DNA from: a virus
Virus record (IMG/VR): IMGVR_UViG_3300021961_000264
Span: 1-37,466 of that record
Length of the DNA stretch: 37,466 bases
Strand: one strand, 5' to 3'
A program made the position numbers and the translations under genes. Each line of letters starts with the position of its first letter. Position 1 is the first letter of the stretch. This document shows positions 5,194 to 34,845 of the stretch, one piece after another. The notes beneath the pieces were generated by a model. The model was not told the origin of the DNA and made no database searches. It saw only the letters and a program-made list of their open reading frames with translations.

Positions 5194-5618
5194 TAGGTCA
5201 AGGCGAGGACGAGAGCATAAACAACCCCAATCGCCGCGCCAACCGTCAGGAGAAAGGCTCGGTGACAAGAGGACAAAACGTGGAGGTGACAGAGTGCAGC
5301 CAGAATGCCACACGCCTGCCGGAAAATTGAATTGCTGACAACGCCATGCTCAAACCACCACTTCGCCGCCGGCTGGTTTTGCTCGTAATGGTGCCAAGCA
5401 ACCCCCCACCAAGCGTTGTCGCCAAGCTTTCCCAGAAAGGAAAAGCAGATGCCCAAGACCAACCAATCGACCAACTCTATGTTCTCTCCGGCAATGCGCT
5501 TCCGAAAAACCGTCCACCCCTTCGGCGCCCAAATAATTAAAACGGCAGCAGACATGATCAGCACAAGGGGGGTCAGGCCAAGTGAAAGGAGTTGGAAAAA
5601 TTCGCGCAGGTCATTCAT
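5193..5618 (-). CDS. Polytopic membrane protein, 141 aa
   Basis: Three to four hydrophobic segments are visible: LGLTPLVLIMSAAVLIIW near 13-30, VDWLVLGICFSFLG near 50-63, CGILAALCHLHVL near 103-115, and FLLTVGAAIGVVYALVLAL near 122-140. No known family is recognised. Placed first among the coupled lysis genes, it may be a second holin, an antiholin or a superinfection-exclusion protein. The stop overlaps the start of the i-spanin-like gene. Confidence 0.7.
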   Translation of the reverse strand: MNDLREFFQLLSLGLTPLVLIMSAAVLIIWAPKGWTVFRKRIAGENIELVDWLVLGICFSFLGKLGDNAWWGVAWHHYEQNQPAAKWWFEHGVVSNSIFRQACGILAALCHLHVLSSCHRAFLLTVGAAIGVVYALVLALT

Positions 5619-5636
5619 GTTGGGGCATGGGTTTCC

Positions 5637-5840
5637 TTAATCTTGCAGCAGGATATGTGGAATTGCAACCAGCATTTTCCCCACCCGGCAGCACCACTCC
5701 CCGTCCCAACCGTCCTGATCCGCGCCAGGGAAAAGCGGTTCCACGATGGCCCCATCCAGCAAGACAACCCGACCAGTCGACCACTCGGTGACCTCCGTGC
5801 GTTGCCGTATCTTTACCGCTCCTGGAAGACTGTATGGCAT
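5637..5840 (-). CDS. 67-aa hypothetical protein
   Basis: The product reads MPYSLPGAVKIRQRTEVTEW and continues as a soluble, β-rich-looking sequence with two adjacent cysteines (EWCCRVG). The start lies just after the SSB terminator, making it the first gene of the next transcription block. No domain is recognised. A longer frame that crosses the terminator in another phase (5611-5901) is rejected. The start codon has neither a Shine-Dalgarno sequence nor the typical A/C leader, so confidence is moderate. Confidence 0.5.
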   Translation of the reverse strand: MPYSLPGAVKIRQRTEVTEWSTGRVVLLDGAIVEPLFPGADQDGWDGEWCCRVGKMLVAIPHILLQD

Positions 5841-6819: not shown

Positions 6820-8726
6820 TATACAAGAGTTCGTTTCGTTAGTTCCATTTCGGCACCCGAATTCACCGTGGAAGTCACCGTGCCAGAGGTCTCGCAGGCG
6901 ATTCTCAGCACCACATTGCCCGAGGTGCCAGCCGTGGTGATTCGCCCGCGCAAAATCATTTCGGCGTCAGACTTCGATACAGCAGTTGTCTGGACGTACG
7001 GAGTGTCGGACGCGGTAAGTATAGCACTCGCGCTGTTGCCAGCAGCGTATTGCAAAAAGACCGCTACTTGCATGGTTGCACCAGTGGGAATTTGCAGAGC
7101 TACACGGATACCTTCGCCGGCTCCCGTGGTATTAACCTGAGACCTGATTTCGATGTAGTATTCCGAGTTCGCTTCCATCGCGATGCTCATTCCCGTCACC
7201 GATTCCAGCGCCGTGCTGGCCGTCACAGTGTAATCGCTGCTCAAGGTAACTCGCTCGAATTCAGGTGGACCGCTTGAACCGCTTGCCGTAATCGTCGTGT
7301 CAGTGATGGTTAGTCCCGTGCCAACGGTCAAATGCGTCAACTTGCCTGCGGAGTCATCCCAAAACACAAGTCGATCAGCGCCGGGGTCGTCGGCGCTCAG
7401 GGCTTGAGAAGTCAGTGTGAGAACGTCCGTCACGCTGGCGTCAAGCGTCACATCTCCGCTGTTGGTGCCCGTAAGGTCCAGCGTCGTTTTCATCGTCGCC
7501 GCGTCAACGCCAAGCTGGATGGTGCCAGATGTGGTGATAGGACTGCCTGAGTCAACCTGAATACCATCGGTGCCGGAGACGGCAACGCTTGTGACGGTGC
7601 CGGTGCCACCGATGGTTGACGGTTCCCAACGGTTGTTAGCGGTTGACCATGTGAGAGCTTGACCGTTTGTGGCGCTTTTCTGCTGCAACTCGTAGGTGTT
7701 CAGATTGGTCAAACTACCCCCGTCCCCGTTGGTAAGAAGAAGTGTTCCCGTCGATGAAGGAAGCGTTACATTAGGGGTGCCAGACAAAGACGATGGCGCT
7801 TGCAAGAAAACATAGTCGGTCGGTCCAGTTGTGGGGGAATAACGAATGCCGACACCGTTTGAAACACTGTCAACGTCGTATTGAACAACATCAAATGGGG
7901 TGTCACTGTTTGTGTTTTTCCAGACCAATGACGCTAGGTCGGAGTCATATTTCAAGAACCCGTTGCTAAAAGAAGGGACGCCATCTGCCGCCGATGTGAT
8001 TCGCCCCTTGGAATCAACCGTGACGTTCGCAAGAACGTATGACCCCGGCGTAACCGCAGTGTTCGCCAAGGTCGCTGCCTGACTGCCGTTGCCGGGACCA
8101 GCAGTCACATCGCCAGTCAACTCAGTGATGCCCGTGTCCGTCACCGTCACCGCCAAAGTCGTTCCCGTCATCGACAACCCGGTGCCGAGCGTGATTTCCT
8201 GCGGATCACCGGAGCCAGAGTCACCTCGACCAATCAACGTAGACCCGGCGCTGACGTTTTGCATTTTTGCATAGCTGACTGCATCATTGGAAATTGTCGT
8301 CGCATTGCTGCCAGCAGAAGCGGTCACGTCACCAGTCAGCGCAGACCGGCGGATGTTGGCCCCTTGGAATTCCAACCCACCGTCAAGACCAACCTGTTGG
8401 GGGTCGCCAGAACCAGAACTGTGGCGCCCAATGAGGTGTTCGGTGGCGATGTCCTCCATCTTGGCGAACGTGACCGCGTTGTTGGCAATGGTCACCGCGC
8501 CGGTCGTCGCCACCGTTACATCGCCAGAAGCCGGAACCCAGGCGTCGTCATAATCTGTGGACGACTGCTTCACCAGGAGGTCGCCAGCGTCCCCACCGGA
8601 CGCAACGCCAGGACCAGGAACAAGGGTCGGACTAACCGCAACCGATGCCACTTGCTGGGTTGGGTTGGTCACCGTGACCTTCACGGGACCGGGGTCGGGG
8701 TTCGTCACATAAACTTTGATGGCCAT
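6819..8726 (-). CDS. Tail fibre protein, repeat-rich
   Basis: The 635-residue protein starts MAIKVYVTNPDPGPV. The N-terminal ~90 residues are a virion-anchoring region. It is followed by repeats of the type NNAVTFAKMEDI...LIGRHSSGSGDPQ and NDAVSYAKMQNV...LIGRGDSGSGDPQ, with LTGDVT units at ~150, ~220 and further on. Such Ser/Gly/Thr-rich repeats are typical of trimeric fibre shafts. The last ~140 residues (from PPEFERVTLSSDY) look like a jelly-roll or TNF-like receptor-binding head. The start at 8726 is separated by one base from the preceding stop. No intramolecular chaperone or enzyme motif is visible. Confidence 0.85.
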   Translation of the reverse strand: MAIKVYVTNPDPGPVKVTVTNPTQQVASVAVSPTLVPGPGVASGGDAGDLLVKQSSTDYDDAWVPASGDVTVATTGAVTIANNAVTFAKMEDIATEHLIGRHSSGSGDPQQVGLDGGLEFQGANIRRSALTGDVTASAGSNATTISNDAVSYAKMQNVSAGSTLIGRGDSGSGDPQEITLGTGLSMTGTTLAVTVTDTGITELTGDVTAGPGNGSQAATLANTAVTPGSYVLANVTVDSKGRITSAADGVPSFSNGFLKYDSDLASLVWKNTNSDTPFDVVQYDVDSVSNGVGIRYSPTTGPTDYVFLQAPSSLSGTPNVTLPSSTGTLLLTNGDGGSLTNLNTYELQQKSATNGQALTWSTANNRWEPSTIGGTGTVTSVAVSGTDGIQVDSGSPITTSGTIQLGVDAATMKTTLDLTGTNSGDVTLDASVTDVLTLTSQALSADDPGADRLVFWDDSAGKLTHLTVGTGLTITDTTITASGSSGPPEFERVTLSSDYTVTASTALESVTGMSIAMEANSEYYIEIRSQVNTTGAGEGIRVALQIPTGATMQVAVFLQYAAGNSASAILTASDTPYVQTTAVSKSDAEMILRGRITTAGTSGNVVLRIACETSGTVTSTVNSGAEMELTKRTLV

Positions 8727-8727
8727 A

Positions 8728-9081
8728 TCAGGACTGGGTGCAGACGTTTCGGACAAAAACTTTAGCGGTGTAGATGGGCGCCAGTCGGATGCCGCCAGAC
8801 GTGGTCAGCACCACGTCGTAGATGTAATCTCCGACAGTCATCGCCGCCGTCTCGGTGTCGGTCTTGGTGATCTGGTATGTGCCGGTCGAAGCATCGACCC
8901 AGGAAATTCCCATGGTGAACGCCAACGCGGAGTCAACATCTTTCCTGGCGTCTGCGTCGATGGTGTAGCCGGTGTAGTCAACGGCATTGCCAGACTCGTC
9001 GGTGAGTTGGTATTGGACTGCCACGAAATCAATGTTCCGCAGGAAAGTGACGTTGAGGTTGGAGATGTCAGCGCATGCCAT
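8728..9081 (-). CDS. Fibre/baseplate attachment protein-like, 117 aa
   Basis: The product is all-β looking. It begins MACADISNLNVTFLRNIDF and includes VAVQYQLTDESGNAVDYTGYT and GDYIYDVVLTTSGGIR. Proteins with this pattern (polypeptide with a deviation term, then GDY.YDV...S.G) occur next to phage fibre genes and resemble the N-terminal Ig-like domain of upper baseplate proteins. It probably joins fibre to tail. The name comes from position and general pattern, not a firm family match. Confidence 0.65.
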   Translation of the reverse strand: MACADISNLNVTFLRNIDFVAVQYQLTDESGNAVDYTGYTIDADARKDVDSALAFTMGISWVDASTGTYQITKTDTETAAMTVGDYIYDVVLTTSGGIRLAPIYTAKVFVRNVCTQS

Positions 9082-27653: not shown

Positions 27654-28961
27654 TTATCCGACAAATCCTCCGCGTTGAAGCGCCCCTCGGCGCCTGGGTG
27701 TTTCGACTCGGCCCGTCACCCCAGGCGCTTTAACCAAGCCGGCGTGAATAGCTTCGGCCATGTAGCGCAGCGCGTCGGCAGTATGAGAAGAAAAGTCATG
27801 CACGGGAGTACTGGCGATGCGCTTGCCGCGATCGACCTCCTTTGTGTGGTAGGAGCCGAGGGCATCGACGCCGATCTCGGTTTCGGGTGTTCGGAAGACG
27901 AGCGTGGGGAACATGCCAATGAGCGCATTGATGCCCAGCCAGACGTCGGTCGTTACCGGCAGAACACGCACCTGACCGATGCCAGTGGCAGACAGTTCGT
28001 CGGCAAAGGTCTTGCCCGTGTATTCCCGGCGCCCGGCGTCGTGCGGCAGGAAGTGTAACCCATACGGGTAGCCCTTCCGCTGCATGTGCGCCACCCTCTC
28101 GTTAAGGGTGTTTGCGCCGAGGTCACCCACGTCGCAGTCGATGACGCGGATTTCCCGGCCAACCACTTGCCAATACCAAACTGAGGTGTTCGCCGGTGAC
28201 CCCAAGTCCCAGCTTGTGTGGACCGGCACGTCAGCGAGCGGCACTCTCCCGATGCGCCCCTCCTGTCGAGCCTTCTCAATGGCGGCAGCGTAAATGGCGC
28301 CAGGGATCGCAACACTGAAGTCGCACTCGTATTCCTGCTTGAACGCATGTTCCGGCATGCCTGCACGCAGGGACGCCAGTTCATCGGCGGGAATGATGCC
28401 CGATTCGCTGGCCCGCAGGAGCAGGGAAAACCACTCGTCCGCGTTCTCGAGCGCCTCGGTGTAACGAGAATAAAACGCATTCTTGCCCTTCGGTGTGCCA
28501 ATGAACGTCGCCCACCCCTGGTAGTCAGACAAGCACGGACGAATGACCATCGGCCATGCGCTGCCATCGATATCGGCAGGCTCGTCAATGACTACTCCGT
28601 CGAAATACAGACCGCGCATTCGGTCGTAGGAGTCGCCAGAGTAAAGTCGGATTTGCGCTTCGTTCGGCAGCACCAAGGAGAGTTCCTGCTGGTTGACCTT
28701 TGTGCCAGGGATCGCGGAGGTGAACTTTTGCAGGTAGCTCCAGGCGATATCCTTGGCCTGATCCCTGGTCGGCGCAATGTAACCGTAGCGTAACGGCGGG
28801 CCAGATCGCCGGTGAGTCAATGCTCGGGCGAGAATGTCTTGCAAACACGAATACGTTTTGCCGGCACGACGATGACAGACAAGGCAGGCAAACCGCTTTT
28901 GACGCTTCAGATAGGGCAAAAACGCGTCGCGGGGCTGGATGTGGATCTCAATGTGACTCAC
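27654..28961 (-). CDS. Terminase large subunit
   Basis: The 435-residue packaging motor has a Walker A-type motif CHRRAGKT at 29-36 and a Walker B motif VVIDEP at 123-128 with the catalytic Glu. The C-terminal RNase H-like nuclease has D252 in SWDLG, D308 in PHDAG and an Asp near 397 in HTADALRYM. It cuts concatemeric DNA and pumps it into the procapsid. The start is a GTG at 28961, 45 bases after the small subunit; no ATG is available near this position that keeps the N-terminus. The 5' neighbour, small subunit, fits the usual order. Confidence 0.95.
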   Translation of the reverse strand: MSHIEIHIQPRDAFLPYLKRQKRFACLVCHRRAGKTYSCLQDILARALTHRRSGPPLRYGYIAPTRDQAKDIAWSYLQKFTSAIPGTKVNQQELSLVLPNEAQIRLYSGDSYDRMRGLYFDGVVIDEPADIDGSAWPMVIRPCLSDYQGWATFIGTPKGKNAFYSRYTEALENADEWFSLLLRASESGIIPADELASLRAGMPEHAFKQEYECDFSVAIPGAIYAAAIEKARQEGRIGRVPLADVPVHTSWDLGSPANTSVWYWQVVGREIRVIDCDVGDLGANTLNERVAHMQRKGYPYGLHFLPHDAGRREYTGKTFADELSATGIGQVRVLPVTTDVWLGINALIGMFPTLVFRTPETEIGVDALGSYHTKEVDRGKRIASTPVHDFSSHTADALRYMAEAIHAGLVKAPGVTGRVETPRRRGALQRGGFVG

Positions 28962-29006: not shown

Positions 29007-29402
29007 TCAGGCTTCCTCTGCGTCACTGTCTCCGCCGATGCGAACCACGATGACTGGCGCTCCTCTGTTTGCTTCGGCACCGTCGCCACCGAGGTCGTTA
29101 TCAACCTTAATGGCGGCTAGTCGGTCACGGTTCTCGCCACTCAGTGCGATCTCCCGGCAGATGCGTCTCTTTTCGGCAGTGGTGAGGACTGCCTCATGTG
29201 CGGCTTGTGTTTGCAGCCACGTGACGCGGGCGGCGATGCTCTCTGTCCGCGCCAAACGAGACGCATTGCCACCATGAGGCGAATAGCCGGCGGCGATGTA
29301 AGCGTCGGCTTGGTTCATGCCCTGCGACCGAGCCTGCGCGAACAGCTCATGCTGTGCATCGCGGAGGGGTTTCGCTGGGTCTGGTTGTGACAGGTCTGCC
29401 AT
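29007..29402 (-). CDS. Terminase small subunit
   Basis: The product is 131 residues from MADLSQPDPAKPLRDAQHEL; alternative starts at 29447 or 29489 would add 15-29 residues. The sequence FAQARSQGMNQADAYIAAGY followed by SPHGGNASRLAR is the helix-turn-helix of many small terminases. A charged helix follows (TTAEKRRICREIALSGENRD). It should recognise the packaging site and recruit the large subunit. The repeat-rich region just upstream (29482-30025) is a possible binding site. Confidence 0.85.
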   Translation of the reverse strand: MADLSQPDPAKPLRDAQHELFAQARSQGMNQADAYIAAGYSPHGGNASRLARTESIAARVTWLQTQAAHEAVLTTAEKRRICREIALSGENRDRLAAIKVDNDLGGDGAEANRGAPVIVVRIGGDSDAEEA

Positions 29403-29596
29403 TCCGTGAAAATGGGGCGGCAGGAGGGTGAAGTCAAGGGCTTTCATGGAAAACAGCGGTCTAACAAGAAGCGTCGATAAATTGGGCAACTTTTCTCGTT
29501 GATTTTCAATGAGTTATAGAAAAAGAGGGGGGAAATTGGGCAACTATTGGGCAACTATTGGGCAACTTTTTCTGCCAACCCCACTTCTGCAACTCC

Positions 29597-29640
29597 TTAT
29601 ATTATAATACTTTATGAAAGTAGATATATATATATGAAAG
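29597..29640. promoter_or_regulatory. AT-rich core with ATTATAAT, possible promoter or DNA-unwinding element
   Basis: These 44 bases are nearly all A and T, including ATTATAAT at 29601-29608 (a -10 consensus on both strands) and an alternating TA run at 29624-29634. On the minus strand it lies ~200 bases before the small terminase start and could be the structural-operon promoter, though no clear -35 is visible. Flanked by the iteron-like copies, it could also be an origin unwinding element. Confidence 0.4.
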
Positions 29641-29982
29641 ATTTCTGGGCAAATTGGGCAAAAAAATATAGACCCATAGCGAGGTCCGTTTTTTTGGACG
29701 CAACGGAAAATCGGGGGATCTATATGTCTCTACCCCGAAAAGTTGCCCAATTTGCCCAATTTCTCGTAAAGTGTTGGAAATCAACAAACTCGGTGCCCAA
29801 CTTTTTGCCCAATTGTTGCCCAATTTGCCCAAAAACCTGCCCAGAACGCCTCTCAAAACTGAGAAAACGAAAGGTTTCGTTTAGGAGGGCCGACAAAACG
29901 CGCAGTGAAATTTTTCGTTCTGGGCAAATTGGGCGCCCAGTTTTGGGCAACCCCTGGCGTGTCGGGGGCGGTTCGAGGGCAT

Positions 29983-30013
29983 AAAAAAGCGCCACCAGTT
30001 TCCCGGTGGCGCT
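29983..30013 (-). terminator. Rho-independent terminator after early block
   Basis: A 9-bp perfect stem (AGCGCCACC at 29988-29996 and GGTGGCGCT at 30005-30013) with an 8-base loop is followed on the minus strand by six T. It starts about 13 bases after the stop of the acidic 69-aa gene and ends the block that includes the methyltransferase and replication genes. Confidence 0.85.
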
Positions 30014-30025
30014 ATGTTTGCCCAA

Positions 30026-30235
30026 TTATTCGTCCGACTTCCACCAGGGCGGGGACGTGTCTCCGAAGTCTGGGAAGGGGTCTGGGCTGGCAAATTGTTG
30101 CGCGTTCCAGTCCTCCATCGCCTGTCGGACTGCCACCTCAACGGTCGGCGGCATCAGGGGTTCATTGAGGGCTTCTTCAAGCAGGAGCCACCATTCTGGC
30201 GCTTCTGAGTATTCTGGCGGTTCGTCTCTGTTCAT
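30026..30235 (-). CDS. Acidic 69-aa protein
   Basis: The product MNRDEPPEYSEAPEWWLLLE and onward has about 16 Asp/Glu against 3 Arg/Lys residues, with several Trp and Pro. It is preceded by AACCACCCAACACAACACCAAC, an A/C leader without Shine-Dalgarno. Strongly acidic small phage proteins include DNA-mimic anti-restriction or anti-CRISPR proteins, but no family link is visible. It is the last gene before the terminator. Confidence 0.65.
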   Translation of the reverse strand: MNRDEPPEYSEAPEWWLLLEEALNEPLMPPTVEVAVRQAMEDWNAQQFASPDPFPDFGDTSPPWWKSDE

Positions 30236-30255
30236 GTTGGTGTTGTGTTGGGTGG

Positions 30256-30519
30256 TTACAGGATGTCGTTGATGATGTCGGTGGCAACCTCCTCAGCCCA
30301 CTCCTCATCGGTTTCGTTTTCGGGTTGGTACCAGTTGTCGATGGCGAGCTTAATGCAAGCCATTACACAGTTGCGCGTGAATTGAGGCTTGGACTCGTCG
30401 CCATAGAAATTGCTTTGGCCGATCATGCTCGACGTGTTCATCGTGATGATGTCGCGGCTTCCAAATGCGGAGTCGATGCGGGCGGCAATTTCGTTGGCTT
30501 GAGCTTCGGTGAGTTTCAT
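30256..30519 (-). CDS. 87-aa hypothetical protein
   Basis: The product begins MKLTEAQANEIAARIDSAFG and continues through KPQFTRNCVMACIKLAIDNW to an acidic C-terminus (NETDEEWAEEVATDIINDIL). It appears helical and soluble. The start follows the A/C leader CAACCCAACCCAACACCAAC. No domain is recognised. The gene is 20 bases upstream of the acidic gene and belongs to the same run. Confidence 0.65.
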   Translation of the reverse strand: MKLTEAQANEIAARIDSAFGSRDIITMNTSSMIGQSNFYGDESKPQFTRNCVMACIKLAIDNWYQPENETDEEWAEEVATDIINDIL

Positions 30520-30543
30520 GTTGGTGTTGGGTTGGGTTGTGGG

Positions 30544-31398
30544 TTAGATTTTGTGGATGCGTTCACCGATCCAGCGCATGACAGGAACGGCCATCGAGTT
30601 GCCCAGTGCCTTGTATCTCGGACCGTCAGGGCATTGATCGGCGGGTTTGTTTCGCCAGGGAATGAGGGTGTAGTCGTCGGGGAATCCTTGCAGTCGCTCG
30701 CACTCTGTTGGGGTTAGGCGACGAACCGCATCAGCTTTCTGGGCTACTGCCATGGCGTTTTTAGCCGTAAGCGATGGGCATATATTTTCGGCAGTAGCAC
30801 ACTGCGTTCCACTCAGCGTTGACGGGAAGGCTAGTGCCAAGCCTCCTGCGTTTTGGATGGGACTATATGCTGAAGTGGTCATAGCTGGAGCAACTTGAAC
30901 CTCTCGGATAGAATCAAAATTCTCCGCATAGGCTATAGCATGAGAGTATTCTTGATGAGGTATGGGTTCCAGAATATGGAAATCTTCTGTTAGTGCTTCC
31001 TGATTACCCAGCCACAGTTTAGACCCAGCATTTGCCATCAAGCAAGGGAACGTGAGCTTCCCGCTTGCAGTGCAACGCGCAGCTTCTTTGGTAGTGTCTT
31101 GCCGCGTTTTTCTGCTCGACGGAGAATCCCGGCACACGCTTTCGGACTCAAAAAGAACCTTTGCGGCAGTGTTTGCGTCTCCAAGACATCCGACAACGAA
31201 GACTCGACGACGACGCTGGGGGACTCCGAACCATTGAGCGTCCAGCACCCGGTAGGACCACCCATACCCCAACTCCCCCAACGCTCCGAGGAAGGCACCA
31301 AAATCCCGTCCTCCGTTGGATGACAGGACACCGGGGACGTTTTCCCAGACAATCCATCGAGGCCGGAGACGTTGAGCGATCTCAAGGTAGGTAAGCAT
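30544..31398 (-). CDS. DNA cytosine-5 methyltransferase, C-terminal part (frameshifted)
   Basis: This frame carries motif VI (WIVWENVPGVLSS), motif VIII (QRRRRVFVVG), a target-recognition region and motifs IX-X ending ALGNSMAVPVMRWIGERI. It continues the upstream frame that holds motifs I and IV. The frame switch lies at a run of four G on the plus strand (31410-31413), where one extra base would give continuity of the form LTDPRGGLMLTYLEIAQ. The gene may be a true pseudogene, a sequencing or assembly error, or a programmed -1 shift. Methylation would protect phage DNA from restriction or mark it. Confidence 0.8.
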   Translation of the reverse strand: MLTYLEIAQRLRPRWIVWENVPGVLSSNGGRDFGAFLGALGELGYGWSYRVLDAQWFGVPQRRRRVFVVGCLGDANTAAKVLFESESVCRDSPSSRKTRQDTTKEAARCTASGKLTFPCLMANAGSKLWLGNQEALTEDFHILEPIPHQEYSHAIAYAENFDSIREVQVAPAMTTSAYSPIQNAGGLALAFPSTLSGTQCATAENICPSLTAKNAMAVAQKADAVRRLTPTECERLQGFPDDYTLIPWRNKPADQCPDGPRYKALGNSMAVPVMRWIGERIHKI

Positions 31399-31670
31399 GA
31401 GTCCTCCACGGGGTCGGTGAGTCCTTTGCGGAGTCCTGCGACGGAGAAGGACTGGCAGGGGGTTCCTCCGACCAAAAGGTTAACTGTGTCTCTGAAAATC
31501 CATTCATGATGCTTGGTCATATCGCCCAGGTTTGGGACATCCGGCCAGTGATGGGCAAGCACTGCGGACGGAAAAGCTTCGATCTCGGAGAAAGCTAATG
31601 GCTTCCACCCGAGGGGATGCCATGCAATGGTTGCGGCTTCGATTCCTGAGCAGACTAAAATGTAGTTCAT
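31038..31670 (-). CDS. DNA cytosine-5 methyltransferase, N-terminal part (frameshifted)
   Basis: The frame starts MNYILVCSGIEAATIAWHPL (SAM-binding motif I, C-S-G-I) and has motif IV with catalytic Cys in GGTPCQSFSVAGLRKGL. After about residue 87 it no longer resembles the family, because the true continuation lies in the overlapping frame (30544-31398). The ATG at 31670 overlaps the stop of a 13-codon ORF. As read, this frame gives a truncated 210-residue protein without the target-recognition part. Confidence 0.75.
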   Translation of the reverse strand: MNYILVCSGIEAATIAWHPLGWKPLAFSEIEAFPSAVLAHHWPDVPNLGDMTKHHEWIFRDTVNLLVGGTPCQSFSVAGLRKGLTDPVEDSCLPTLRSLNVSGLDGLSGKTSPVSCHPTEDGILVPSSERWGSWGMGGPTGCWTLNGSESPSVVVESSLSDVLETQTLPQRFFLSPKACAGILRRAEKRGKTLPKKLRVALQAGSSRSLA

Positions 31671-32066: not shown

Positions 32067-34643
32067 TCATTCCTCCTGCTCTAAACCGAACATCGAACTC
32101 GGCAACCGTGTGGCACGAAGGCACAATCCCCCGAACCAGGCGGTCTTCACCCGACCGGCGCCTGGGAGTCGGCGGAGTTGGTCGCTCCACTTGCCGGCAA
32201 ACGGTGTGTCGGAGAAGACCTTTTTCAGTTCGGGGTGCGAATCGGCCACGTCGAGTGAACCGTCCCGCCTGAGTGCCATGCCGTGCCGCTCCAGTGTCGT
32301 GCGTGCCGCCTGCTGGTCGACGTAGCCGGACGCCTGCCTGACCAGTTCAGAGACGCTTCTGGAATAAACGCGGTCGTGTTCTTCATGCCGGACAATGGCA
32401 GCGAGCAGGACCGTGAGCGCCCGTTGCTCGTCCATGTCGTGTGGGTCCGCCCGAAACGCTTGCCACTCCTGCTGGCTGCACCAGTCGGTGGCCTCAGAGA
32501 GTGAGACAACTCGGTCGTGCCTCAAAGAAACGGCGCCAGCCAGCAGAGCGCCGATCTGGTCACCGTCACGCTGCCCGCCGAGGTGGGCTGCACAAGCGGT
32601 CGCAAACACCCTAGCATTGGCGGCAATTACAGGGGCCAGAGTCAGCGCCCGTGACCGGAACGCAGCGCACCACTGATCATCCAGCGTCGTCGTTGCCATC
32701 GCTGCCTGCATTCTTGGCCATGCGCCAGGTGTTTCAATGTGCCTTTGTGTGTCCATCTCCATGAGGGTCAGGCGCGACAGGTCCGCCCGCTGGGTGGCGG
32801 CAACACCAATGGAAGCAAACAAAAACATGCTCCTGACAGTGTATTCCAACGCGTCTCCACCCGCAGACCCCTTGATGATTTTGGCACGGGATTCGCGGCT
32901 GGCTTGGCGGGCGAGCATGAGGATGCGCTGAATACGCTCCTGATCGTGCTTGTTCTCCGTTTCCGCCTCGTCAATGACGACCGGGAAAGCATCACTCCGC
33001 AGGGACTGGCGAATGCCAGCCTCAGTCGTGGAGGTTCCCTGAGCGATGACCGCAGCGTCACCGAGAATGCGTTGGATTACCTGGTCGATGAGGACGGTTT
33101 TGCCACTGCCCGCCTTGCCACTCAGCCAAATGTGAGGGCGCCAGTCGAGCGCCCCGCAGATGGGAGCGCAAACCAGCCAGCCGGCAAGCAGCAGAGGGTC
33201 CATTGGTCCAGCCAAATTGGACAGGCTCAACAGTGACACTAGTTTGCCCGCCTCATCTGCCGGCAATGGGGCAAGAACTGAGCATGGGATTGCGCGTGCG
33301 GTCTGATAGAGGTAGGTGCTGGCGACCCCCTCAATGGACTTGGGACTGCCGTCCACATACAACTGGTCACCGGCGTGATACACGACACGCCCAGCATCGA
33401 GCCACGCGCCACGTCCCCTCAACCGAAACGGATCGAAAACTCCGACCGCCGTCTGGCGCTGCATGAGGGCATTGGCTGCGGAAATCCACGCCACGCTGCC
33501 CTCGGCGCCACCTCGGGAGGGAAACGAATCTTCCCACCACTGGAGGGGAGCCAGCCGAAGCAATTCTGTGCTGCGATGAGCGGCAGCAGACAACGCCACG
33601 ATCTGTCTCAGCGCGTGCGGGAAATAGTAATACGTCCCGTCGTCGTACCCCAGCAAATCAAAAGGCGCCCCAGAACGGTCTGCCCGTTGTTCGTCGTTCC
33701 GTTGAGGGGGAGCGGGCTGCCTCGCCGCCTCAACCATCTCGCGGACCTGCTTGGCCGTCCAGCCCTCGTCCACGGCATCGGCAACGTCCCACCCTCCGTC
33801 CTTGCCAGCCGGTGGGGTCACGACATGCACGGTGCAGCCAAGTTCCTCCAGCAGTTCCTTGACGGTTTTCGCGGCCTTCTTGCCGGCGTCGTCGGCGTCC
33901 GGCCAAATGGTCACGGTCCTGCCAGCCAGTGGGGTCCAGTCAACGTGCCGCACAGCTTGACAACCTCCCGGCCAGGAAACGGCGCAGGCGCCCAGTTCGG
34001 CCATGACGTCAGCGCATTTTTCACCCTCGACCACGACAACCCCGGCGTCAGGTCTGGCTGCGAGACGGTCAAGCCCGTAGAGGGGGCGAGGCTTGGCGAA
34101 TGATGTCCAAGCCCACTTGCTTTCGCCAACGGCGTTGGTGACCCATGTGCGGGGCAAAATCTCCTTGCCACCATCGGCTCGTTGATACCGGGCGATCCAA
34201 CCGATGGGGCGCCCCTCCGCGTTGAGGTAGCACCACGACGCGACCGGGTCACCATGGACGTGGTGCCGCAGTGGGGGCGGAGTCGGGACGCCAGGGGGGA
34301 CCGGGCAGACCTGCGTCCACTCTGGTCGGGATGGCGCCCGAGTTGCGGGAGCCGGTGCGGAGGACGCAACCCCAACAATTTCAGATAACGCCCGTGCCGC
34401 GGCGAGTTGCTCCAGTCCGTTGATGGCGGCGTATAGGGAGATGAGGTCACCTCCGCGAACGTCCCCAGCAAAGTCCGCCCAGCGACCCGTGCGGAGATTG
34501 ATGCTGAGAGACGAGCCGGCGTTGCCAGCCAGATCACCGACCAGCCACTCCGCACCATTCCTCCGACCAGCCGGGAGCCAGCGAGGGACCAACACCTCCG
34601 CCTGCTCAAGAGCGGCGGACGCAACGAGAGGGAAGTCAATCAT
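32067..34643 (-). CDS. Primase-helicase (Toprim + DUF927-like ATPase)
   Basis: The 858-residue protein starts MIDFPLVASAALEQAEVLVP. The N-terminal region (~28-90) resembles the zinc-binding part of primases but lacks the cysteines. A Toprim domain follows with VVVEGEK at 203-209 and IWPDADD at 246-252. A C-terminal helicase has a Walker A motif GKAGSGKT at ~508-515 and a Walker B-like VVIDEAE near 552, as in DUF927-type helicases. It should prime and unwind phage DNA. The start overlaps the 69-aa gene by eight bases. No separate DNA polymerase is seen in the window. Confidence 0.88.
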   Translation of the reverse strand: MIDFPLVASAALEQAEVLVPRWLPAGRRNGAEWLVGDLAGNAGSSLSINLRTGRWADFAGDVRGGDLISLYAAINGLEQLAAARALSEIVGVASSAPAPATRAPSRPEWTQVCPVPPGVPTPPPLRHHVHGDPVASWCYLNAEGRPIGWIARYQRADGGKEILPRTWVTNAVGESKWAWTSFAKPRPLYGLDRLAARPDAGVVVVEGEKCADVMAELGACAVSWPGGCQAVRHVDWTPLAGRTVTIWPDADDAGKKAAKTVKELLEELGCTVHVVTPPAGKDGGWDVADAVDEGWTAKQVREMVEAARQPAPPQRNDEQRADRSGAPFDLLGYDDGTYYYFPHALRQIVALSAAAHRSTELLRLAPLQWWEDSFPSRGGAEGSVAWISAANALMQRQTAVGVFDPFRLRGRGAWLDAGRVVYHAGDQLYVDGSPKSIEGVASTYLYQTARAIPCSVLAPLPADEAGKLVSLLSLSNLAGPMDPLLLAGWLVCAPICGALDWRPHIWLSGKAGSGKTVLIDQVIQRILGDAAVIAQGTSTTEAGIRQSLRSDAFPVVIDEAETENKHDQERIQRILMLARQASRESRAKIIKGSAGGDALEYTVRSMFLFASIGVAATQRADLSRLTLMEMDTQRHIETPGAWPRMQAAMATTTLDDQWCAAFRSRALTLAPVIAANARVFATACAAHLGGQRDGDQIGALLAGAVSLRHDRVVSLSEATDWCSQQEWQAFRADPHDMDEQRALTVLLAAIVRHEEHDRVYSRSVSELVRQASGYVDQQAARTTLERHGMALRRDGSLDVADSHPELKKVFSDTPFAGKWSDQLRRLPGAGRVKTAWFGGLCLRATRLPSSMFGLEQEE

Positions 34644-34845
34644 TTTCAAGTGGGGCGAAAAGTTCGACGACTTCAAATTCTTCACGATGGACCAGCATGA
34701 GTCCAGTGTGCGAACACCAGCAGGAAAGCGAGCGCAGAGTCTCGTCCATGAGGTGTAGCTGCCGCTCGGTGATGCGGCAGGCTTTACCGGGGTTTGCTTG
34801 GCACCATGCCGTCACCGCTGGCAGTGCTGTTTTGTAGGTTGTCAT
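34636..34845 (-). CDS. 69-aa hypothetical protein
   Basis: The product MTTYKTALPAVTAWCQANPG and onward is soluble with cysteines (LSCWCSHTG) and an acidic C-terminus. The ATG at 34845 follows CGCAATACAACAAC, an A/C leader that lies within the 3' end of the VRR-NUC gene (62-base overlap). No domain is recognised. Overlaps on both sides suggest tight co-expression with nuclease and primase. Confidence 0.55.
   Translation of the reverse strand: MTTYKTALPAVTAWCQANPGKACRITERQLHLMDETLRSLSCWCSHTGLMLVHREEFEVVELFAPLEND

Follow-up and report, generated by a model that had tools for sequence, protein, structure and literature searches.

What is the function of a dense array of short repeats that lies in a podovirus genome, where the replication genes end and the small-terminase gene starts? 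We examined this question in the virus record IMGVR_UViG_3300021961_000264 of IMG/VR, all 37,466 nucleotides of which are hereafter called the window, and which carries a podovirus capsid module (Head-tail_con portal, terminases, and major head protein). Within positions 29482-30025, the 8-mer TTGGGCAA/TTGCCCAA occurs in 12 exact copies. Judged from sequence comparison, this array is very probably the replication origin of the phage, of the pri-rep-ori or P4-alpha type, served by the primase-helicase that the phage itself encodes. We read it in this way because the iteron sets flank the most AT-rich 50-mer, similar arrays recur beside homologous primase-helicase genes, the iteron words follow the tree of the initiators, and the array is lost when the replication module is swapped.

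Layout of the array and its candidate initiator

The exact copies start at 29482, 29536, 29547, 29558, 29654, and 29943 on the plus strand, and at 29743, 29752, 29805, 29816, 29825, and 30018 on the minus strand. A first-pass annotation, made from the sequence alone, had described 12 exact 8-mers in both orientations within 544 bases, and we located all of them. Its count of about five near copies holds for three with a single mismatch (29645, 29793, and 29920), while the few others are 7-mers. Elsewhere in the whole 37.5 kb there are just four exact copies, and TTGGGCAA is the most clustered and densest 8-mer of the window. In 200 first-order Markov shuffles, a 544-bp stretch never contained more than 2 copies of it, and in 40 shuffles no 8-mer whatever went above 4.

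Inside the sets, the iterons are mostly spaced by 9-12 bp, and sets of opposite orientation lie on either side of the most AT-rich 50-mer of the window, an element missing from the first-pass annotation. No clear sign of an origin emerged from the GC skew of the window. The array has no DNA similarity to named phages, and a literature search for TTGGGCAA yielded, among the papers listed, nothing but unrelated sequence strings.

Which protein would read these iterons? The phage primase-helicase is a fused primase and hexameric-type helicase by its Toprim and AAA matches, its assignment to phrog_35358, and its fold. The AlphaFold2 model (mean predicted local distance difference test score, 88; predicted template modelling score, 0.57) matches DnaG and the D5, NrS-1, and SaPI5 primase-helicases, and a profile search with the protein found DnaG-type primases as well. 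By sequence, the protein falls outside the P4 alpha family: it scores 15 bits against the model TIGR01613, for which the cut-off, and the score of P4 alpha itself, is 108.7; nor does it match Pox_D5, which P4 alpha does. Residues 735-872 form a separate, confidently predicted domain with a winged-helix-like order of helices and strands. Among close initiator pairs, which are not independent of one another, this domain is as similar as the rest of the protein when the iterons are the same (differences of -0.03 to +0.06), whereas identity falls by ~0.09 to 0.25 within it when the iterons differ. For example, L357 and L358, which have different iterons, are 94% identical elsewhere and 71% identical in this domain, where their differences fall in the helix-turn-helix segment and in the final hairpin. 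Because close initiators with different iterons differ mainly there, the comparison suggests that the predicted winged-helix-like domain is the likely iteron reader.

Arrays and iteron words in related phages

In order to place the array among its relatives, we collected homologues of the initiator by an alignment search, which found at least 553, and took 80 further viral contigs from these. For 45 non-redundant viral loci with a homologous primase-helicase, we recorded the strongest two-orientation 8-mer cluster. It falls between -100 and +600 bp of the stop codon of the gene in 19 loci, as compared to 2.7 expected by position (P=1.3e-12), and the arrays at the gene usually lie within ~220 bp 3′ of it. 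The arrays that we inspected look similar, with AT-rich tracts surrounded by iterons whose spacing is often 9-12 bp. The words themselves differ, and include TTTGGCAA, CTTTGCAA, GTCTGCAA, and GGTAACA. In the nearest initiator relatives, L279 (primase-helicase 56% identical) and L298, arrays of TTTGGCAA and CTTTGCAA, respectively, stand with TATATATAT tracts directly 3′ of the gene. The named phages phi1422 and S-H1 have GGTAACA and ACCGTTAG arrays just 3′ of the primase-helicase gene, and Acjo_20 has a GTGTAACA array just 5′ of it. Moreover, with motif classes assigned by eye, the iteron word needs 10 changes on the initiator tree, as compared to 15.1 in shuffles, none of 200 being as low. Two well-supported sets of the tree that hold the window, of 3 and 7 rows, consist entirely of GCA-type iterons.

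Several results weigh against the origin proposal. In the window, the array lies 3′ of the primase-helicase gene at a distance of 2.0 kb, and is therefore not immediately 3′ of it. A detectable array stands at the gene in fewer than half of the 45 relatives, some arrays lie kilobases off, and when exact 8-mers are required, about 14 of the 45 have no array at all. Of nine named-phage records that we examined, six have none at the gene; one-mismatch scans of L299, L300, L302, L303, L304, and L306 likewise showed no array there. The proposed reader is also subject to such points: a PDB search with the C-terminal domain gave no significant match (best E=0.36, although winged-helix proteins are found among the weak matches, several times), and the origin-binding domain of P4 was not among its matches. 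Across all pairs, with overall identity controlled, motif similarity does not follow C-terminal identity (partial r=0.07).

Replication module exchange and rival explanations

Does the array travel with the replication genes or with the capsid genes? Through the large terminase (TerL), we found the capsid/terminase relatives L280, L281, and L282, which have structural genes in common with the window (TerL, 86-88%; small terminase TerS, ~62%). The array is missing from all three, and nowhere in their records do two direct copies of TTGGGCAA lie within 30 bp of each other. A relative of the primase-helicase was not detected in them (L280 and L281 are fragments), and L282 has RecT-like, PD-(D/E)XK, DUF1376, and DnaB genes instead. 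Because these phages lack both the array and a detectable primase-helicase, and L282 has the DUF1376/DnaB genes, the whole replication module appears to have been exchanged between close phages, with the array moving along with it. According to the first-pass annotation, absence from close relatives with the same gene order would refute its reading of the array. It is indeed absent where the structural genes are shared, but the replication module of these relatives is swapped, which points to replication.

The module swap also bears on the possibility, raised in the first-pass annotation, that the array is a packaging site (pac/cos region) read by the small terminase, the gene of which adjoins it directly downstream. 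Repeated sites do occur in some pac regions. A packaging site should be conserved together with its cognate terminase, but the near relatives with the same capsid and terminase genes and another replication module lack the array. Furthermore, we examined the 1.2 kb 5′ of the large terminase in 16 terminase-anchored loci, and none of them has a two-orientation array there, while L279, L298, and L311 have related arrays and no detectable relative of the TerL of the window. Packaging is therefore a very improbable function of the array. Operators at which a phage repressor or activator would switch between two transcription blocks, another early suggestion, would fit an intergenic position between the blocks and the terminator-like hairpin inside the array, and iterons can also act in autoregulation. 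We nevertheless found no positive evidence for such sites: in the relatives, the array accompanies the primase-helicase gene rather than downstream genes of any single type, a promoter does not usually need as many as the ~15 sites present in these 544 bp, and no sigma-70-like promoter was found in the array region. We consider this explanation very improbable as well.

Iteron arrays also occur at partition sites and at the sites of host proteins, and two readings of this kind were accordingly considered: a centromere-like partition site, and binding by a host protein, for example DnaA. None of the window proteins that were scanned was recognized as the product of a partition gene. From phage to phage, the word varies along the initiator phylogeny, unlike a host-protein site, and TTGGGCAA, for which DnaA had been named earlier as a possible binder, is not known to be a DnaA box. 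This explanation is less probable again than packaging. As for a chance or neutral repeat expansion without function, tandem repeats containing TTGGGCAA are present in unrelated bacterial genomes, but the copy count in the window is far above that in the shuffles, the spacing is irregular with both orientations present, and the same layout with other words stands beside the homologous gene in independent phages. We consider such an expansion extremely improbable; the comparison with these phages refutes it, unless the array turns out to be dispensable. The idea of iterons for replication initiation, which the first-pass annotation listed among its options, is by comparison well supported by the comparative evidence.

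Other repeats were encountered during the searches. Bacteroidales genomes (L168, L189, L200, L204, L226, L232, L240, and L254) carry regular 22-23 bp tandem arrays with TTGGGCAA, several of them on more than one contig, and these look like an unrelated repeat family. Adjacent TTGGGCAA pairs in viral contigs are mostly bare pairs, which fits chance, and were not used as evidence. A triple TTGGGCAA pattern, tried as a family signature in genome contigs, mainly retrieved regular tandem repeats of 9-38 bp, many with periods that are multiples of 3, and was uninformative. L347 has a long 36-bp tandem repeat at ~2050-2640, at a distance of ~5.4 kb from the primase-helicase gene, and its core 8-mer is present 25-26 times in the locus.

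Known origins, proposed mechanism, and gene surroundings

How does the proposed origin compare with known systems? P4 alpha, like the initiator of the window, combines a Toprim primase and an AAA+ helicase in one protein, and the 8-bp type I repeats of P4 (GGTGAACA) likewise occur in both orientations with AT-rich DNA. P4 alpha binds its repeats via a winged helix and then performs unwinding and priming (PMC4234260). The cis replication region (crr) of P4 is located 46 bp 3′ of the alpha gene, which is the place of the arrays in the homologues of the window initiator. In contrast to the single combined array of the window, P4 distributes its type I repeats between the origin and the separate crr. 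P4 is a satellite and the window a free-living podovirus; the iteron words differ, the window initiator fails both TIGR01613 and Pox_D5, and the window array is 2 kb from the gene. In the phage-inducible chromosomal islands (PICIs), the origin is the region immediately 3′ of the initiator gene, two iteron sets always flank an AT-rich region, and the pri-ori function is supported by plasmid tests (PMC6092414). The likeness to the pri-rep-ori of PICIs and Staphylococcus aureus pathogenicity islands (SaPIs) extends to the protein, for which the SaPI5 primase-helicase ranks with the best matches by fold. The window differs from these islands in being a podovirus with its own capsid and terminase, in its primase-helicase of another sequence family (phrog_35358), and in its iterons. 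By these comparisons, the putative origin in the window is P4/PICI-like in architecture and location, yet it has another iteron word and another initiator sequence family.

In lambda-type origins, the iterons are inside the initiator gene, and L282 apparently uses this type: in its DUF1376 and DnaB module (6972-8912), the DUF1376 gene contains AACCCAGTGG repeats at a spacing of 11 bp, resembling the lambda O origin. As in the window, short repeats form a likely initiator-binding origin, but there they are coding, have a single orientation, and go with a DnaB helicase rather than a fused primase-helicase. The VapE/PriCT_2-type replicons L056 (TTGGGCAA) and L130 (GCCCAACCT) have window-like arrays and a VapE-domain helicase gene, but belong to a different initiator family by domain content. 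L056, a small circular element of 5.9 kb whose contig bears a terminal repeat of 127 bp, has 13 copies of TTGGGCAA in both orientations at 5371-5718 and encodes a serine recombinase and a PriCT_2/VapE primase-helicase, so that the word of the window occurs with another initiator family. In L130, GCCCAACCT/AGGTTGGG repeats in both orientations lie at 5540-5760, directly after the VapE-domain helicase gene.

We infer that the initiator binds the array, melts the DNA, and fires the origin in the following manner. The C-terminal winged-helix-like domain of the primase-helicase (32067-34685) would bind the 8-bp TTGGGCAA iterons in the sets around the AT-rich element, and the assembly of the initiator on these sets would melt the element at 29597-29646. 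The helicase part would then load as a ring and unwind the DNA, the Toprim primase part would lay primers, and finally, the host replisome would take over.

Table 1. Positions of the array, its parts, and the adjacent genes in the window
Feature	Positions	Strand
Array of TTGGGCAA iterons, 12 exact and 3 with one mismatch, both orientations (proposed replication origin)	29482..30025	
Left iteron set, 4 exact copies	29482..29565	+
AT-rich element, 86% AT, most AT-rich 50-mer of the window (proposed DNA-unwinding element)	29597..29646	
Iteron pair adjoining the AT-rich element (1 one-mismatch, 1 exact)	29645..29661	+
Right iteron set, 5 exact and 1 one-mismatch, inverted relative to the left set	29743..29832	-
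Third iteron group, 1 near and 1 exact copy	29920..29950	+
Terminator-like hairpin within the array, oriented for transcripts that run leftward out of the replication block	29988..30013	-
Outermost iteron, adjoining the stop codon of ORF 30026-30235	30018..30025	-
Large terminase subunit	27654..28961	-
Small terminase subunit, longest reading	29007..29489	-
C5 methyltransferase (two frames) plus two small ORFs, lying between the initiator gene and the array	30026..31670	-
Primase-helicase, 872 aa, Toprim and AAA+, phrog_35358 (DNA primase), proposed initiator	32067..34685	-
C-terminal winged-helix-like domain, residues 735-872, proposed iteron reader	32070..32483	-

The replication block to the right of the array encodes, on one strand, a superfamily 2 (SF2) helicase, a VRR-NUC nuclease, the primase-helicase, a C5 methyltransferase, and two small open reading frames (ORFs). 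The array had been described as lying between a terminator and the terminase genes and as separating two transcription blocks. The terminase does adjoin it and the blocks are separated, but the terminator-like hairpin is within the array, and the flanking genes are all on the minus strand, making the blocks co-directional. Since the left-most iteron overlaps the TTG start of the longest small-terminase reading, the true start is probably a later ATG, at 29447 or 29402. The C5-cytosine methyltransferase (30544-31670, minus strand) is divided between two overlapping frames, ORFs 31038-31670 and 30544-31398, each of which matches part of the DNA_methylase profile; a frameshift, a sequencing error, or a programmed shift may account for the split. 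The small ORFs 30026-30235 and 30256-30519 have no Pfam or PHROG matches. The contig ends (1-612 and 36855-37466) overlap over 612 bp with 94% identity, 36 mismatches, and no gaps, which suggests that the genome is circular or terminally redundant and that its assembly combined two strains.

To our knowledge, the replication origins of most uncultivated phages are unknown. With at least 553 relatives of the initiator, an origin of this type could be located from sequence alone, through the initiator gene and its iterons. It is an evenly balanced question whether free-living tailed phages include a large class in which replication begins at P4/PICI-like iteron origins, with the iteron word and the C-terminal winged-helix-like domain changing together while the rest of the enzyme stays constant; such a class is not described as such in the literature that we found. 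If this is true, then these phages would offer a series of naturally matched pairs of protein and DNA (TTGGGCAA, TTTGGCAA, CTTTGCAA, GTCTGCAA, GGTAACA, CGTCAGAA, and others), and a recognition code could be deduced from it. The paired change of word and domain would make it possible to test how these initiators recognize DNA, and also whether origin specificity isolates phages and their satellites from one another.
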